A stretch of 64,000 nt of DNA from an uncultured Gammaproteobacteria bacterium (GTDB taxonomy: Bacteria > Pseudomonadota > Gammaproteobacteria > Arenicellales > JAANXG01): the NCBI GenBank assembly GCA_947258975.1, contig CAMYKK010000022.1, forward strand, positions 29,895 through 93,894, given 5' to 3'. Below the pieces are notes generated by a model. That model searched no databases. It was given only the letters and a program-made list of their open reading frames with translations, and was not told the origin of the DNA. Made by a program: the position numbers and the translations under genes. Below are positions 30,793 through 41,622 of this stretch, one piece after another; the stretch's first letter is position 1; the number at the start of each line of letters is the position of its first letter.

Positions 30793-33246
30793 TCAGCCCA
30801 ACCGTAACGGCAGCGTGCGCAGGCGCTGGCCGGTGGCCGCGTAAACCGCATTGGCGACGGCCGGCGCTACCGGCGGTACACCGGATTCACCGACCCCGCC
30901 TGGCGCTTCGGTGCTGTCCACGATGTGCACCTCGACCGCCGGCATCTCTTTCAGCGTCAGAATAGGATAATCCTCGAGGTTCGCCTGCAATACCCTTCCC
31001 GCTACAATGTTGATCTCTTCGTGTAAAGCGGCGGACAGACCAAACGCGATCCCGCCCTCCATTTGCGCACACACGGTGTCGGGATTCACCGTGATGCCGC
31101 AGTCGACCGCGCATACCACCCGACGCACGACAATCTCAGCGTCCGCGATTTCGACTTCGGCGACCTGCGCGACGATCGTTCCAAATGAGCGATAGAGCGC
31201 GACGCCGCGGCCATAGTTAGCCGGCAGCTCGCGGCCCCAGCCGGCGTTTTCGGCAGCAAGTTCCAGGACTGCTTGATAGCGGGGTGCGTGCGCCAACAGT
31301 CGGTGGCGGTAAGCGTAAGCGTCTTGCCCCGCGGCGTGCGCCAATTCATCGATAAAGCATTCGATGGGGAACGCATTCTGTCCGGCACCCACCGAACGCC
31401 AGTTGCCGATCGGTACTTCGTTCTCGATGATCCGGTGCTCCTCGCGAAAGTTGGGGATCATGTAGGGCACTGAGATCATCTCCAATGCCAGACCCGGTCC
31501 GGCGGCGCGCAGCCGCCAGGCGGTGGGTCGTCCATCGACATCCAACGCCGCGATCAGCGCGACGTAATGAGCAGGCCGGTAGACATCGTGTTGCAAATCG
31601 TCCTCTCGCGTCCATATGACCTGTACCGGTTGCCGCACATTTTGCGCCAGTTGTACGGCATCGGCCACCATATCGGTTTCCAGCCGGCGGCCGAACCCGC
31701 CGCCACAGAATTGGCTGTGGACATTGATCATTCGCCTGGGCAGGCCGGTCAGTCCGGCTGCGGTCTTTTGTACAGCGCTTTGGTTTTGCGTGCCCACCCA
31801 CACGTCGCACTGTTGGTCATGCAGATGTGCGATACAGTTCATCGGCTCCAAGGTCGCGTGCGCGAGATATACGGTTCCGTACCCTGCGCTAACACGGATG
31901 TGCGCCTCCTCCAGCGCTCGTTTTACGCTTCCGCGACGATGAATCAGTCTGCCGGGTTGTTCCGTAGATTGTTGCAACCGCCGATAATGCGTTCCGGTGT
32001 CGAGCGTGGACAGGCCCTCGGACCATTCGACCTGCAGTGCCTGGCGGCCGCGCATAGCGGTATAGGCATCGTCCGCCAGCACCGCCACGCCGCTATCGAT
32101 GACATGCACCGCGCGCACCCCGGGAATCGCCAGGGTGTCGTCAGCCACCACGCTTTGCACGCGGCTTCCCAACACCGGGGATCTCTGCACACTGGCGACG
32201 AGCATGTTGGTTTGTCGAAGATCAAACCCATACATTGTCGTCCCCCGCACCATGTCGAGTACATCCAATCTGGCAGCGGGCCGGCCCAGCAGCCGCCACT
32301 GATCCCTGGGTTTGTAGCTTGCGCGCTTCGGAGCAGGCAGTTTGGACGCCTGATCAGCTAACGCCGCGTACTGCGCGCGCCGTCCACTGCGTTCATGGAT
32401 GACCGTGCATGCTTCGGCACGGCAGTCACCCACACGCACGCGCCATCGTTGCGCGGCGGCTCTGAGCAACGTCATTCGCGCGCTGGCGCCGGCGTGGCGA
32501 AGTGGATTCCACTGACTGGATACCGCGGTGGAGCCGCCGGTCACCTGTACGCCAAACCGAGGATTGACATACACCTTTGCCGCTGGCGCGAAGCTTATGC
32601 GAACCTGTCTCCAATCGGCCTCCAACTCTTCACTGATAAGCATGGCGAGGGCGGTACTCACGCCTTGTCCCATTTCGGCGAAGTTGATCGTTAACGTCAC
32701 GGTGTTGTCGCCATGAATCCGCAACCAAGGATTGAGCGCCGTGCCTGCATCGGGTGGAGGCTGTAGCGAGGCCGGGAGCGGCATCTGATCCTGCCCGTTA
32801 ACGAGTTCAACGGTACGCGCAATTGCGCGGCGAATTCTTTGGTAGGTACCGCAGCGACACAGCACCTTTGACATCGCGGTTTCCAGCTCTGTATCTGCCG
32901 GATTCGAGTGCCGGTTGAGCAATCCCGCCGCGGCCAAGATTTGGCCGGGTTGACAATAACCGCACTGCGGTACCTGTTCCTCGATCCACGCAGTCAGGAG
33001 TGGATGGCCGCTTTGCGCCAGGCCCTCAATAGTGGTGACTTTTCTTCCCTGTGCTTTTTCCAATGGCACCATACAGGAACGGTTGGATTCCCCGTCGATC
33101 AAGACCGTGCAGATCCCGCAGATGCCCACGCCGCATCCAAATTTGGTGCCCTTGAGTCCGAGGACATCGCGCACGACCCATAGTAGCGGGGTGTCTGGGT
33201 CCACCGAAACCGAGTGCGTTTTCTCGTTCACGGTTATTTCTATCAT
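30793..33246 (-). CDS. Fused IorA-IorB-type molybdenum hydroxylase (2Fe-2S plus Moco)
   Basis: The 817-residue chain starts with an IorA-like module: plant-type 2Fe-2S cysteines C38, C43, C46, C58 and the second cluster C95, C98, C130, C132. A short linker (about 150-165) leads to an IorB-like Moco domain with EMGQGV (about 191-196), CGGGFGRR and the C-terminal GVGESGVPPVAPAVANAV, whose Glu is the catalytic base position. These are normally two subunits; no Tat signal or FAD subunit is present. Related enzymes oxidise N-heterocycles or aldehydes. It is downstream of and co-directional with the methanethiol oxidase and SCO-MauG genes (138-bp gap). Confidence 0.9.
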   Translation of the reverse strand: MIEITVNEKTHSVSVDPDTPLLWVVRDVLGLKGTKFGCGVGICGICTVLIDGESNRSCMVPLEKAQGRKVTTIEGLAQSGHPLLTAWIEEQVPQCGYCQPGQILAAAGLLNRHSNPADTELETAMSKVLCRCGTYQRIRRAIARTVELVNGQDQMPLPASLQPPPDAGTALNPWLRIHGDNTVTLTINFAEMGQGVSTALAMLISEELEADWRQVRISFAPAAKVYVNPRFGVQVTGGSTAVSSQWNPLRHAGASARMTLLRAAAQRWRVRVGDCRAEACTVIHERSGRRAQYAALADQASKLPAPKRASYKPRDQWRLLGRPAARLDVLDMVRGTTMYGFDLRQTNMLVASVQRSPVLGSRVQSVVADDTLAIPGVRAVHVIDSGVAVLADDAYTAMRGRQALQVEWSEGLSTLDTGTHYRRLQQSTEQPGRLIHRRGSVKRALEEAHIRVSAGYGTVYLAHATLEPMNCIAHLHDQQCDVWVGTQNQSAVQKTAAGLTGLPRRMINVHSQFCGGGFGRRLETDMVADAVQLAQNVRQPVQVIWTREDDLQHDVYRPAHYVALIAALDVDGRPTAWRLRAAGPGLALEMISVPYMIPNFREEHRIIENEVPIGNWRSVGAGQNAFPIECFIDELAHAAGQDAYAYRHRLLAHAPRYQAVLELAAENAGWGRELPANYGRGVALYRSFGTIVAQVAEVEIADAEIVVRRVVCAVDCGITVNPDTVCAQMEGGIAFGLSAALHEEINIVAGRVLQANLEDYPILTLKEMPAVEVHIVDSTEAPGGVGESGVPPVAPAVANAVYAATGQRLRTLPLRLG

Positions 33247-33384: not shown

Positions 33385-35292
33385 TTAATGCCGGACGTCG
33401 CCAATCGGTGTCGCGAACGCGTCGGAAACCAGGACATCCACGTTGTCACCGGTGAGGGACTTCAGGAACGCCACCAAGTCGTCGATGTCATTGTCGCTGA
33501 GTCCCAACTCTCCCAGCAAGGGATCCTGTCCCTCGTTGGGTATGCCGCCCCGGTTGTAGAATTCCATCACAGCACGCAGTGTCGGTATCGAGCCGTTATG
33601 CATATACGGGGCGGTCAGCGACACGTTGCGTAAACTGGGTGTCTTGTATTTCCAGCGGTCCGCCGGATCTTGGGTGATTTCATAGCGTCCTAGATCGTTC
33701 GGTGGGGTTTCCGATGCCGCCGCGACAACATGGCCGTCGACCTCAATAATCACGCCGGGGGCCACGGTTAGCTTGTGCGTTTGCGGCGTCTTATGCATCG
33801 ATGCAGCGTACCCGACTCCGGTGTTATGCAAGCGATTATCGGTAAATAGGGCATCATTCGTCCCGATCAAATGACAACCGCTGCAGCGGGCCTTGCGGGT
33901 AAACAACCGGAATCCGCGCTTTGCGCTGTCACTAACCGCCGCGCCTTGCTTGCCGTAATACCAGCGGTCGAAGGGCGACGCTGCCGAGACCAACGCGCGC
34001 TCATAGCTCGCTATCGCCATGCCGATGGTTTCGATGTCCGGCGGTCGGCCGTTGAACGCGCCTTCGAACAACCCATCATAATCCCGCATTTCCTTGAGTT
34101 TCTCGATCACAAATCCAATCGACGGGTTGGCCATCTCGTTCTTGGCCAGCAGCGGGCCCCATATTTGATTCTCTAAGGTGGTCTCGCGGCCATCATGAAA
34201 CAGCGAGTCCATGTAAGCCACGTTGTACAGGGTCGGCGTGTTTCGCCTTACCGTGCGGCCTTCCACTCCCACTGCGGTCGCCAATTCATTACTGGTGAAG
34301 CCTTGCTCGGGAATGTGGCACATGGCGCATGAGAACGTGTTGTTGAATGATAAACGGCGATCGAAAAACAATTTACGGCCGAGTATGATTTTTTCCACAG
34401 TTAAGATGTTGCCGGCGGGTACGAGGATTGCCGGCAGACCCAGCGGACGACGTTTCACCAGTGTGTCGAGATCCGCAAATTGCCCCTTGCGATTCTGCAG
34501 GCTGCGGGTGCGGGTTTGATAGGTCGAAGATTCGTAGCCTGTCTTGTCGTCTCCTGCGCCTTGGACGCTTGTCAGTGGTGCGGTGGTTCCGGACTCCTCC
34601 ATGGCCAGGGTTTTGATATCGTTGACGAGCGTGTCCGCATGGAGGAAGCCGGCGCTGTAGATGTTGCGGATGCGATGCGAGGAATCGATGAGGAATACTC
34701 TGAGCACATGTGCAAACGTCCCCAAAAAAACGCCTTTTGCATTTCGTTCCTTAATGATCGACTGACCATAGTGCGACAGAATCGGGGCGAGCTTGGTTTC
34801 CGAGGCGGTGGTGAGGAACCGCCAGTCGGGATCGATGTCCCGGAACCCGGCCCCATAGCGGCTCATCACCGCCGGATTATCACGTAGCGGGTCAAAACTC
34901 AAGCTGACAAGCCGCACCCGACCGCCCATCGCCGGCTGGGCGTTCAATCGCCGTTGTACCTGTTGTAACACAGCCAGGGCCAGTGGACAGCCACGGGCAT
35001 CGCTGCAGGATGTATAGATAAGGCTCAGGAGGACGATCCGGTTGCCGAACACGTCATGCAAACGGGTTGTTGACCCGTTGTCGGTGAGTACGCTGCCGTC
35101 GTAGGCGGGTTTTAGAATCGGTAGTGAATAGGTGCCGGGGGACGGAGGAGTGAAGTCGAGCAGCGCGCCGCCCGGAGCCTCGACCTGCGGCTCGCTTTGT
35201 GGTTGGTCGCGCTGGTCCCCACCGTGTGCCTCGGCCAGCGAACTCACCAACGCGATCGTCAGCGCGAACAACCACAGCGTTGGCATGTTCAT
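33385..35292 (-). CDS. SCO1/SenC - MauG-like di-heme fusion protein
   Basis: The 635-residue protein has a signal peptide (cleavage near AEAHGG). Residues about 55-230 form a thioredoxin-like SCO domain with C96 and C102 in TSCSDARGCP (six-residue spacing by position, longer than the usual CxxxC) and a His near 195 in FAHVLRVFLID. Residues about 270-620 form a MauG/cytochrome c peroxidase-like di-heme domain with CAMCH (322-326) and CSGCH (470-474). SCO proteins deliver copper; MauG modifies protein residues by peroxide chemistry. It lies 50 bp after mtoX, so maturation of that oxidase is the likely job. The fusion is the unusual point. Confidence 0.93.
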   Translation of the reverse strand: MNMPTLWLFALTIALVSSLAEAHGGDQRDQPQSEPQVEAPGGALLDFTPPSPGTYSLPILKPAYDGSVLTDNGSTTRLHDVFGNRIVLLSLIYTSCSDARGCPLALAVLQQVQRRLNAQPAMGGRVRLVSLSFDPLRDNPAVMSRYGAGFRDIDPDWRFLTTASETKLAPILSHYGQSIIKERNAKGVFLGTFAHVLRVFLIDSSHRIRNIYSAGFLHADTLVNDIKTLAMEESGTTAPLTSVQGAGDDKTGYESSTYQTRTRSLQNRKGQFADLDTLVKRRPLGLPAILVPAGNILTVEKIILGRKLFFDRRLSFNNTFSCAMCHIPEQGFTSNELATAVGVEGRTVRRNTPTLYNVAYMDSLFHDGRETTLENQIWGPLLAKNEMANPSIGFVIEKLKEMRDYDGLFEGAFNGRPPDIETIGMAIASYERALVSAASPFDRWYYGKQGAAVSDSAKRGFRLFTRKARCSGCHLIGTNDALFTDNRLHNTGVGYAASMHKTPQTHKLTVAPGVIIEVDGHVVAAASETPPNDLGRYEITQDPADRWKYKTPSLRNVSLTAPYMHNGSIPTLRAVMEFYNRGGIPNEGQDPLLGELGLSDNDIDDLVAFLKSLTGDNVDVLVSDAFATPIGDVRH

Positions 35293-35342
35293 GACGCGGC
35301 CAACTTCAAGACTAACGATGTATCACGTCACAGCTTGCTGTC

Positions 35343-36731
35343 CTAACGCGTGTGCTGTGCGACACCTATACCCAAATCGGGATGCACCTGACCGTACAGC
35401 GCATGAGAGCCAAAACGCATCTGATGAGGGCGCCCGAGCTTCTCCGCGGTAAAGTCCACGCTGAATTCAGGCTTCAGTTTTTTTCCATCCCACTTATAGG
35501 CCTTGAAAAACTGCAGGTCTTGGCCTTGTTTCTTGTCCCAATTCGCGAGCAATGACGAGGTAAAGTAAACACGCTTACCATCCCAGCTTTGGGACAGCAT
35601 GTTGATTTGTCCACCGATCTTTTCCTCGTAAACCTGCTTGGGCGCGAACGGATCGGAGATGTCGAACAGGCGGGTTTTGCCGTCGTTCCAGGTATCCACC
35701 CACAAGGTCTTGTCGTCCGCGGAGATCGAAATGTCCACCGGCAGCGGGAGCTGCTTCGGATCGCCGATATCAGCGACCTCCATCGCCTGCCATTGTTGAT
35801 TATCGTCTTCGTAGATCAGCCAGATCTTGGAGGTGAGTGCGGTGGTGGTGAAACAATAATTGTGGAACGACCCCCAGGCGCAGCGGATCTCGAGCGGTGC
35901 GCCCGGCACATCCAAGATCTTTTTTGGCTTGCGGGCGTGCAAGTCCCAAACCACCACCGTATTGCCGAAGCGTTTCATCGCTTCTTGATCCCCCATCAGT
36001 TTCCCAAGATCCATCATATAGTTGTTCCATCCGGTAAATGAGGAGGTAATCATCACGTTTCGGCGCGGAAGTACACGCACGTCGTAACCATACCCATCCG
36101 CGAACTGGCCCGATTTAAGCGCACCTTGCGGATTTTCATCGGTCGGCATCCAATGCGTTGCCACATACTCACCTTCATTGGTGTATTCCACGAGTGCCGT
36201 GCGTCCGCCATGATCCTTGTTGTTGGATAATCCGGTCACCATCATGCGTCCGGGAAGCGCGTAGGTAGTGTGTGGTCCAACAACACCGGCGGACTTGGCA
36301 ACGAAATCGGTAACGACTTTATGGAGTTTCGGTTTGGCCGGGTTGGTGTGGACGTCGAAGATGAAGATCTTGCTGGTATCGAGCCCTGCTGCCCACAGGT
36401 AACGCCGGTCATCGGTAAACCCGGAGTGATGGGCTTCATTACGGCCGCCCACGGACAGGGTATGGATCACCTTTCCGTAGTTTGTCGAATTTGGATTGAC
36501 GTCGATGGTGACCAGTTTGTCTTGTTCATCTCCAATACCCATGGTGCCCAATGTCCATACGTAGACATAGTCCTCTTGACCGACGATCTTGGCCATGTAC
36601 GGCGACATGCAGGTCTCATCGGCATGCGCGATCGACGGTTTAAGGAGTGTCATGGCGCTCAATGCGGAGGCCAGAGTGATTGCAGTGATGGTGCCGAACG
36701 CAGAAGAATAGTAGGGTTGGTTAACGCGCAT
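35343..36731 (-). CDS. mtoX: Methanethiol oxidase (SBP56 family)
   Basis: The 462-residue protein has a Sec signal peptide (cleavage near AHADET) and a full SBP56 beta-propeller: CMSPYMAKIVGQEDYVYVWT, GGRNEAHHSGFTDDRRYLW, PHTTYALPGRMMVTGLSNN, ADGYGYDVRVLPRRNVMITS and the C-terminal GRPHQMRFGSHALYG. In Hyphomicrobium this periplasmic copper enzyme converts methanethiol to formaldehyde, H2S and H2O2. A very strong Shine-Dalgarno (GGGAGGAGG) precedes the ATG. It is first in a likely operon with SCO-MauG and a Mo hydroxylase. Confidence 0.93.
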   Translation of the reverse strand: MRVNQPYYSSAFGTITAITLASALSAMTLLKPSIAHADETCMSPYMAKIVGQEDYVYVWTLGTMGIGDEQDKLVTIDVNPNSTNYGKVIHTLSVGGRNEAHHSGFTDDRRYLWAAGLDTSKIFIFDVHTNPAKPKLHKVVTDFVAKSAGVVGPHTTYALPGRMMVTGLSNNKDHGGRTALVEYTNEGEYVATHWMPTDENPQGALKSGQFADGYGYDVRVLPRRNVMITSSFTGWNNYMMDLGKLMGDQEAMKRFGNTVVVWDLHARKPKKILDVPGAPLEIRCAWGSFHNYCFTTTALTSKIWLIYEDDNQQWQAMEVADIGDPKQLPLPVDISISADDKTLWVDTWNDGKTRLFDISDPFAPKQVYEEKIGGQINMLSQSWDGKRVYFTSSLLANWDKKQGQDLQFFKAYKWDGKKLKPEFSVDFTAEKLGRPHQMRFGSHALYGQVHPDLGIGVAQHTR

Positions 36732-40071: not shown

Positions 40072-41622
40072 TTGCCTGTTTACTCGCACGATACCTTGCC
40101 TCCGAACCGGCTTGCGGTAATGGTTATACTCTCCGGTCGCCGACGGGGGCATATGGTGCATCTGGGCGAAAAGACCATTCACGTCGTTCGTGGCGCCAAT
40201 GGGGATGTGAGCTTCATCCCACCCGACGGGGAGCCGGAGCGCGATGTTCACGCCACCATGCATCGCGCCGGTGACAGCTATGAGATTGAAGTCGCCGCCG
40301 GGTGCCGCATCTGGGTAAATGGCCGCTTAGTCGATGAGAGCCAGACTTTGAATTCCGGAGATTTATTGGAGATTGGACAGGGCGGTCCGATGATTCGCTT
40401 CCGCACGCACCTGCCGGGGATAACACCGACGAAGACCTTGGCTGAGGCGTTCGCTGACTCCCGCGACGGGGCACGGGTGGATGGACAGTCGCGATTGGGC
40501 AGGATGGCCCGATTCGTGAGCAACATCACCAAGGACCTGGCGACTCAGACATCTTTTTGGTTCCGGCTTTGGGTATTGGTGCTGCTCACCGCGTTGGTCG
40601 TGAGCGTGGTGGCATTGGTCACCCAGAACATCCGTTTACAAAAGCGGGTAGCTGTCGAGGGCACACGCATCGAGGGCATAGCCGAATTGCTCGAACGCAC
40701 CGGTGCCGAGGCAATGACTCGCGAAGACCTGTTGACGCTGCAATCGCGCATGGAAGCGCGGCTGGCCGCCACCGTGGATCGCATCGAATCACTGGAGGCA
40801 CGCTCCGATTTGGTGGCCCGCCTCATCTCCAGCGTGAGCCCCTCCGTGGTTTTTATCCAAGGATCCTTCGGGTTTGTCGATCCCACCACCCAACGACCGT
40901 TACGTTATATTGAAGGGGAAGACGGGATCGTTGTGTTTACATTGGAACAGGCCGGACAGGAGTTACACCTGATGTTCTCCGGCACCGCGTTCGTCGTATC
41001 CCAAGAGGGTTTGCTGTTGACCAATAAGCATGTTGCCGTACCGTGGCAGGACGATCCACAGGTGGAAGCGCTAACCGCGCGTGGACTGACGCCGGTGATC
41101 TCGCGCTTATTGGCATATTTCCCGGGCGTCGAAGCGCCGCTCGAGCTGCGCGTGCTGAATGTCAGCACGCGAGCAGATCTTGCGTTGATGCGGATCGTCG
41201 GATCGATGCCCAAGGTGAAGGTCCTGCGTTTGGAGGCCGCGCAGCCCCGGCCGGGCGACGAGGTGCTGGTGCTCGGTTATCCTCTGGGCACCAAGGGATT
41301 GATCGTGCGAGCGAGCGCCGAGTTCATCGAAGCCATCACTCCGGACGGTGACACCGACCTGTGGACCATCGCCCGGCGTTTGTCGGCGGCTGATTACATC
41401 AAACCGCTGGCTACCAGGGGGATCGTCAGCCAGGTTTCCGAGGATGTTGTGGCCTATGACGCCGAGACCACGGTAGGTGGCAGCGGCGGACCGGTGCTGA
41501 ACATGGAAGGCTCGGTGGTAGCAATTACTGCCGCAATCATCACGCAATTTGGCGGTTCCAATCTGGGTGTGCCAGCGCGCATCGCACGGGAGTTGCTGCA
41601 AAACACACAGCGGGCACAATGA
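40072..41622 (+). CDS. FHA-like domain - TM - trypsin-like serine protease
   Basis: A 516-residue protein. Residues about 15-112 look like a forkhead-associated domain (AVMVILSGRRRGHMVHLGEK, then RIWVNGRLVDES). One TM segment lies at about 163-184 (LWVLVLLTALVVSVVALV), then a coiled coil (about 190-245) and a trypsin/HtrA-like protease domain (about 250-515) with H320 (LLLTNKHVAV), D369 (STRADLALM) and S471 (GGSGGPV). Topology implies cytosolic phosphothreonine reading joined to periplasmic proteolysis. No PDZ domain is seen and no partner kinase is encoded in the window. Confidence 0.85.
   Translation: MPVYSHDTLPPNRLAVMVILSGRRRGHMVHLGEKTIHVVRGANGDVSFIPPDGEPERDVHATMHRAGDSYEIEVAAGCRIWVNGRLVDESQTLNSGDLLEIGQGGPMIRFRTHLPGITPTKTLAEAFADSRDGARVDGQSRLGRMARFVSNITKDLATQTSFWFRLWVLVLLTALVVSVVALVTQNIRLQKRVAVEGTRIEGIAELLERTGAEAMTREDLLTLQSRMEARLAATVDRIESLEARSDLVARLISSVSPSVVFIQGSFGFVDPTTQRPLRYIEGEDGIVVFTLEQAGQELHLMFSGTAFVVSQEGLLLTNKHVAVPWQDDPQVEALTARGLTPVISRLLAYFPGVEAPLELRVLNVSTRADLALMRIVGSMPKVKVLRLEAAQPRPGDEVLVLGYPLGTKGLIVRASAEFIEAITPDGDTDLWTIARRLSAADYIKPLATRGIVSQVSEDVVAYDAETTVGGSGGPVLNMEGSVVAITAAIITQFGGSNLGVPARIARELLQNTQRAQ

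Follow-up and report, generated by a model that had tools for sequence, protein, structure and literature searches.

We analyzed a 64,000-nucleotide stretch of DNA from an uncultured Gammaproteobacteria bacterium (GenBank assembly GCA_947258975.1, contig CAMYKK010000022.1, positions 29,895 to 93,894), hereafter the window, in which the methanethiol oxidase gene mtoX is followed by a single gene encoding a SCO1/SenC domain joined to a MauG-like di-heme domain. Within the sulfur cycle, the oxidation of methanethiol is a significant step, and MtoX may carry a protein-derived cofactor. The two genes and the relevant features of MtoX are located as follows.

35343..36731, minus strand: mtoX, methanethiol oxidase of the SBP56 family, 462 amino acids
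36621..36731, minus strand: N-terminal 37 residues of MtoX, a probable Sec signal peptide, judged from the sequence
36609..36611, minus strand: MtoX C41, equivalent by motif (TCQSPYM) to the catalytic Cys28 of Ruegeria MtoX
36426..36431, minus strand: MtoX H101-H102, two of the four predicted copper ligands
33385..35292, minus strand: SCO1/SenC plus di-heme fusion protein, 635 amino acids, starting 50 bp after the mtoX stop

In a profile search, MtoX scored 768.6 bits against NCBIfam NF052453, above the cut-off of 650. Judged by eye, both MtoX and the fusion protein begin with a hydrophobic stretch resembling a signal peptide. Residues A37, D38, T40 and C41 are invariant in an alignment of 8 MtoX proteins, and the segment D38-E-T-C41 matches the N-terminus, DETX, of the native Hyphomicrobium enzyme (PMC5739008). 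For conservation analysis, we compared 209 MtoX rows, comprising 89 loci (83 with both partners in view) and 120 proteins with gene neighbours unchecked, with 23 rows of remote SBP56 proteins; these counts precede the removal of duplicates (for example, L003/L069, L004/L070 and L007/L073), which left 86 of the 89 MtoX locus rows and 22 of the 23 remote ones. C41, the counterpart of the Ruegeria cysteine that its authors describe as catalytic and methanethiol-binding (PMC10936201), is kept in all 209 MtoX rows versus 4 of the 23 remote ones. The four predicted copper-ligand histidines (H101, H102, H154 and H436, assigned after PMC5739008) are common to MtoX and remote SBP56, with H101 and H102 present in 209 and 208 of the 209 MtoX rows and in 23 and 22 of the 23 remote rows. 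Separately, a cysteine pair, C284/C293, is found in 85 of the 89 MtoX loci and in none of the 120 proteins near query L044, with equal counts for both residues, and, judging from this distribution, perhaps forms a lineage-specific disulfide.

The fusion gene holds, in one frame, a SCO1-SenC domain (residues 70-207) and a CCP_MauG domain (300-449), with cytochrome c-like matches reaching residue 613. An earlier note on this DNA had described precisely this arrangement, and both open reading frames are present as it reported. A frameshift or assembly artefact can be ruled out: two relatives at 83-84% identity, of 635 and 633 amino acids, keep a matched frame without an internal stop, and 60 distinct fused loci were seen, including that of the window. 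A homology search with the fusion protein scored 7998 proteins, 5854 of which reached an E-value of at most 1e-30, and both domains were present in all 120 proteins listed.

The same note had taken SCO1/senC and mauG to be separate genes in described mtoX loci, which is contradicted by the literature: SCO1-MauG fusions beside mtoX were published in 2017 and 2019 (PMC5739008, PMC6548844), including two in Methylophaga that are both induced on dimethylsulfide (PMC6548844). Novelty of the fusion is thereby ruled out, and the window locus is a further example of an arrangement already in print. The Methylophaga thiooxydans locus agrees with this one in the order of its genes and domains, the predicted periplasmic location and the proposed role in maturation (PMC5739008, PMC6548844), but, in a comparison made by description only, the Methylophaga clusters continue with genes for a TlpA-like protein, a persulfide dioxygenase and sqrB, whereas here the next gene on the strand encodes a molybdenum hydroxylase. 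The mtoX operons of Hyphomicrobium sp. VS and Ruegeria pomeroyi combine the same three functions, with mtoX first, but there SCO1/SenC and MauG are two polypeptides rather than one.

To assess the spread of the arrangement, contigs of GTDB genomes were scanned with the MtoX alignment, and the best 80 of 534 loci were kept. Of these 80, 55 carry the fusion, the commonest arrangement among them, and 19 carry separate SCO and mauG genes, in that order; in all cases the partners lie downstream of mtoX on the same strand. Five of the remaining six loci are cut by contig ends, and the sixth, L143, has SCO only beside mtoX, with a di-heme gene of the fusion type elsewhere in the genome. Among the 95 distinct di-heme domains linked to mtoX, 60 are fused and 35 come from loci with separate genes; thus, joining of the two domains is not essential. 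In a quick tree of the di-heme domains (LG+G4), the split holding all linked domains received a support of 93, and the topology implies at least 4 changes between the fused and separate states, the root, and hence the direction of change, not being fixed.

At the level of the order, full-length MtoX was found in 21 of 109 genomes, and all 21 have a partner on the same contig: 20 have the di-heme gene there, and in G444 the contig breaks off after SCO and the first part of the di-heme gene. In a sample of the phylum, 5 of 398 genomes encode a close MtoX, all 5 together with both partners, and 21 further genomes encode only remote SBP56 proteins (23 loci, 26-30% identity by tblastn); flanks of ~1.5 kb around these 23 loci gave no match to SCO or MauG exceeding 45 bits. 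Thus, the coupling of the SCO/di-heme partner to mtoX is near-absolute. The survey that the earlier note had suggested therefore bears it out on this point; occurrence of the fusion mostly without mtoX, which it had named as counting against its proposal, is not what the 109 genomes of the order display.

A few di-heme genes were found apart from mtoX. The sole truncated remnant seen in the order, in G007 (86% complete), is devoid of both the first heme motif and the SCO part, and this genome has no mtoX match. At positions 1468-2367 of L013, a remnant truncated in this way stands in a relative whose genome yields no mtoX match, and it looks like decay following mtoX loss. In addition, tandem pairs of MauG/MbnH-like di-heme matches with no mtoX nearby were identified in L022-L025, L015, L016 and L037-L040.

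The N-terminal half of the fusion protein contains the following features.

34672..35085, minus strand: SCO1/SenC domain (PF02630), residues 70-207
34987..35007, minus strand: SCO motif C96-SDARG-C102 (C-x5-C), within TSCSDARGCP
34708..34710, minus strand: H195, likely copper-ligand histidine of the SCO domain

The domain scored above the Pfam cut-off and is modelled as a SCO fold; in a fold comparison of the whole fusion protein, the best 50 matches were all filled by the SCO domain, with no di-heme chain among them. Instead of the canonical CxxxC copper motif, it carries a motif with a two-residue insertion relative to Bacillus subtilis Sco. The C-x5-CP pattern is found in all 98 distinct SCO domains beside MtoX and CxxxCP in none (a count that supersedes one made with a stricter cysteine pattern, which had missed 4 of 89). 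The longer spacing pointed out in the earlier note is thus real, but it is not a quirk of a single gene. C96, C102 and H195 are invariant in 52 aligned fusions, namely, that of the window and 51 of the 120 listed proteins, and by analogy with known SCO proteins H195 is presumably a copper ligand.

The unusual spacing, differing across the clade from the CxxxC of known SCO proteins, would also fit a role in turnover rather than maturation, in which the cysteine pair takes sulfur or electrons from a persulfide on MtoX C41 and the electrons pass on to the hemes. The invariance of C41 and methanethiol binding by its Ruegeria equivalent (PMC10936201) are in line with such a scheme. However, the SCO domain retains the conserved histidine along with its fold, and the native enzyme purifies as a single polypeptide of 46 kDa that is highly active, so that we consider a turnover partner very improbable.

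The C-terminal half contains the di-heme domain.

33412..34422, minus strand: di-heme MauG/MbnH-type domain, residues 291-627
34315..34329, minus strand: heme-1 motif CAMCH, residues 322-326
34195..34197, minus strand: H366, where MauG and bacterial peroxidases have the inter-heme Trp
33871..33885, minus strand: heme-2 motif CSGCH, residues 470-474
33556..33558, minus strand: Y579, probable MauG-like Tyr ligand of heme 2

This half scored 233.7 bits against TIGR04039 (MbnH; cut-off 362.85) and 195.4 bits against TIGR03791 (MauG; cut-off 443.85) and is therefore formally a member of neither family. MbnH is its best NCBIfam match and PDB 6e1c ("Di-heme enzyme") its best sequence match in the PDB; however, 6e1c has a Trp one residue before the position of H366, and neither the MbnH family nor 6e1c includes a SCO domain. 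The sequence FHDGR in the window protein corresponds to FWDGR in peroxidase chains, and, by spacing, we take H366 to occupy the position of MauG Trp93. The di-heme set of 125 rows was reduced to 116 distinct domains (95 linked and 21 unlinked) by removing duplicates and tandem loci with the same best match. The inter-heme Trp is present in 4 of the 95 linked domains, where the replacement is mostly His, versus 17 of the 21 unlinked ones (8 with Trp at position 366 and 9 with Trp at the preceding residue; a less strict alignment had given 20/23). Four unlinked domains have His at 366; in the tree, those of L013, L021 and L164 lie within the MtoX-type clade, and that of L015 lies outside it.

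Other hallmarks of MauG appear to be preserved. At the position of Y579, which we take to be equivalent to MauG Tyr294, consistent with the range of the sequence match, 91 of the 95 distinct linked domains have a residue, and in 90 of these it is Tyr; Q376, P380 and E386, presumably the distal residues, are kept in 95 of 95. Thus, the window domain shares with MauG, which acts in the synthesis of tryptophan tryptophylquinone (TTQ) of Paracoccus methylamine dehydrogenase, the PF03150 domain, the presumed heme-2 Tyr and the distal Q/P/E. Unlike MauG, it scores below the MauG cut-off, has His at the inter-heme position, is fused to SCO and has no counterpart of MauG Trp199, which stands two residues ahead of the second CxxCH motif.

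The retained Q, P and E would also suit a peroxidase that clears H2O2 produced by MtoX, with the SCO half providing copper or thiol-based electrons and with no MtoX residue being modified. Classical peroxidases have Met as the heme-2 ligand, and the Tyr at this position is MauG-like. Yet the related Burkholderia di-heme enzyme BthA, likewise with a Tyr ligand and without the inter-heme Trp, turns H2O2 into water (PMC6405878), and production of H2O2 by native MtoX has been reported, albeit without quantification. BthA differs from the window domain in having Ser rather than His at the inter-heme position, and the excerpts of PMC6405878 contain no link to SCO or methanethiol. Strict coupling with SCO would be unusual for a scavenger, and recombinant MtoX made no H2O2 that its authors trust (PMC10936201). 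On balance, a peroxidase function seems rather unlikely, although it is the alternative to which we give the most credence.

If the di-heme domain modifies MtoX, its target should be sought among the Trp residues of the oxidase, three of which stand out.

36555..36557, minus strand: MtoX W59, candidate target Trp, on model strand 55-61
36393..36395, minus strand: MtoX W113, candidate target Trp, on model strand 111-116
35700..35702, minus strand: MtoX W344, candidate target Trp

The published version of such a modification has the MauG-type domain making TTQ in MtoX; it was proposed in PMC5739008 and repeated for Trp223/Trp386 of Ruegeria MtoX in PMC10936201, residues that by position correspond to W235 and W398 here. 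Both are conserved in MtoX (209 and 208 of the 209 rows). However, W235 is also found in 23 of the 23 remote SBP56 rows (an alignment-dependent count, since another alignment placed it differently) and W398 in 18, at loci without SCO or MauG neighbours; thus, conservation of the proposed pair does not track the MauG partner. Formation of TTQ is further disfavoured by the absence of the inter-heme Trp of MauG from 91 of the 95 linked domains. The mass of native MtoX, 281 Da above that calculated for the polypeptide, was assigned by the authors to 4 Ca and 2 Cu (PMC5739008); TTQ alone would add, by arithmetic, ~28 Da, so that the excess is no test of TTQ. We regard TTQ formation from this pair as unlikely.

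By contrast with the proposed pair, W59, W113 and W344 are each present in 209 of 209 MtoX rows and in 0 of 23 remote SBP56 rows, with Tyr replacing W344 in all 23. In the structure model of MtoX (mean pLDDT 82.7), the strands bearing W59 and W113 follow, in propeller order, those bearing H436 and H101/H102, respectively, and judging from this strand order alone, the two Trp may lie near the copper site. Three other residues, W194, W286 and W383, first seemed restricted to the clade but were dropped because they are kept in 0, 0 and 99 of 120 MtoX proteins. As far as the alignments can tell, W59, W113 or W344 would thus be better candidate targets than the proposed TTQ pair, given that only the clade coupled to the partner has them.

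Taken together, these observations moderately favour the fusion protein being a dedicated periplasmic maturase that delivers copper to MtoX and carries out peroxide-driven oxidation of at least one MtoX residue. The protein would be exported to the periplasm and pass copper to MtoX through C96, C102 and H195, the di-heme part would use peroxide to oxidise the MtoX residue or residues, and the single chain would couple the two steps. Near-absolute coupling with mtoX is what is expected of a dedicated maturase. The single-chain maturase of the earlier note gains from this coupling but not from the fusion itself, which is neither new nor rare. Because the inter-heme Trp is replaced and the TTQ pair is present in most partnerless SBP56 proteins, the modification need not be TTQ; the clade-wide residues argue for a MauG-like enzyme distinct from MauG and for a target other than the proposed pair. 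The new elements, namely, the missing inter-heme Trp, the C-x5-C spacing in SCO and the three clade-only Trp, render the question testable at named residues.

The activities reported for MtoX with and without the partner bear on this proposal. Native Hyphomicrobium MtoX contains copper, has a Vmax of ~16 umol/min/mg (PMC5739008) and released no less than 75% of the sulfur in the form of H2S; the lysate of induced Ruegeria reached 139 nmol/min/mg total protein (PMC5739008). In 2024, three methanethiol oxidases were made alone in Escherichia coli (PMC10936201). That of Ruegeria pomeroyi consumed 77 uM methanethiol at 0.3 mg/mL in 30 min, from which we calculate ~9 nmol/min/mg, far below the native rate, and made sulfane sulfur. 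In the light of this result, a strict need of MtoX for both partner activities, the view favoured in the earlier note, is not supported. Such a gap in rate is what an immature enzyme would show, and immaturity would account for the conflicting products, though species, assays and laboratories differ between the studies. The MtoX studied without its partner was possibly largely immature. More specifically, a di-heme enzyme devoid of the inter-heme Trp might modify W59, W113 or W344 by the copper-ligand strands instead of the TTQ pair, with the native products (H2S and H2O2) coming from matured enzyme and those of the E. coli-made enzyme (sulfane sulfur without H2O2) from unmatured enzyme; this combined version is speculative, and we rate it slightly below TTQ formation and well above a turnover role.

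Several points weigh against a maturase. That the fusion acts on MtoX is a prediction from gene context and sequence, and without the inter-heme Trp the analogy with MauG is weaker. If the MtoX clade is a single lineage, as it may be, common ancestry could be the sole reason for its special Trp. Neither the MtoX model nor that of the fusion contains metal or heme, and the di-heme half of the latter has low confidence; no claim here rests on that half. The human SBP56 protein is called a methanethiol oxidase, and no MauG partner is known for it or for the other remote SBP56 proteins so named. The native enzyme holds merely 1.4 Cu per tetramer (PMC5739008), and MtoX expressed without the fusion partner still consumes methanethiol (PMC10936201). 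Two remote-type (GGDCS) enzymes in the same study consumed 44 and 111 uM and likewise made sulfane sulfur (PMC10936201); since they are equally slow, the low rate is weak support for immaturity, and both slowness and product may stem from the assay. Finally, in G499, where an MtoX fragment sits at the edge of a contig, the di-heme search at 1e-60 gave no match, and G284, in the phylum sample, has a lone di-heme gene of the fusion type and no mtoX match.

Elsewhere in the window, a trypsin-like protease is encoded at 40072-41622 on the plus strand; its N-terminal part matches Yop-YscD_cpl weakly, with a score below the cut-off. The molybdenum hydroxylase mentioned above, a single chain of 817 residues (30793-33246, minus strand), lies 138 bp downstream of the fusion gene on the same strand; the domains listed for it are Fer2, Fer2_2, MoCoBD_1 and MoCoBD_2, with no FAD domain among them. 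A hydroxylase at 84% identity is found downstream of the fusion in 2 of the 80 mtoX loci (L069 and L070), many others being too short. This enzyme might oxidise the formaldehyde coming from MtoX.

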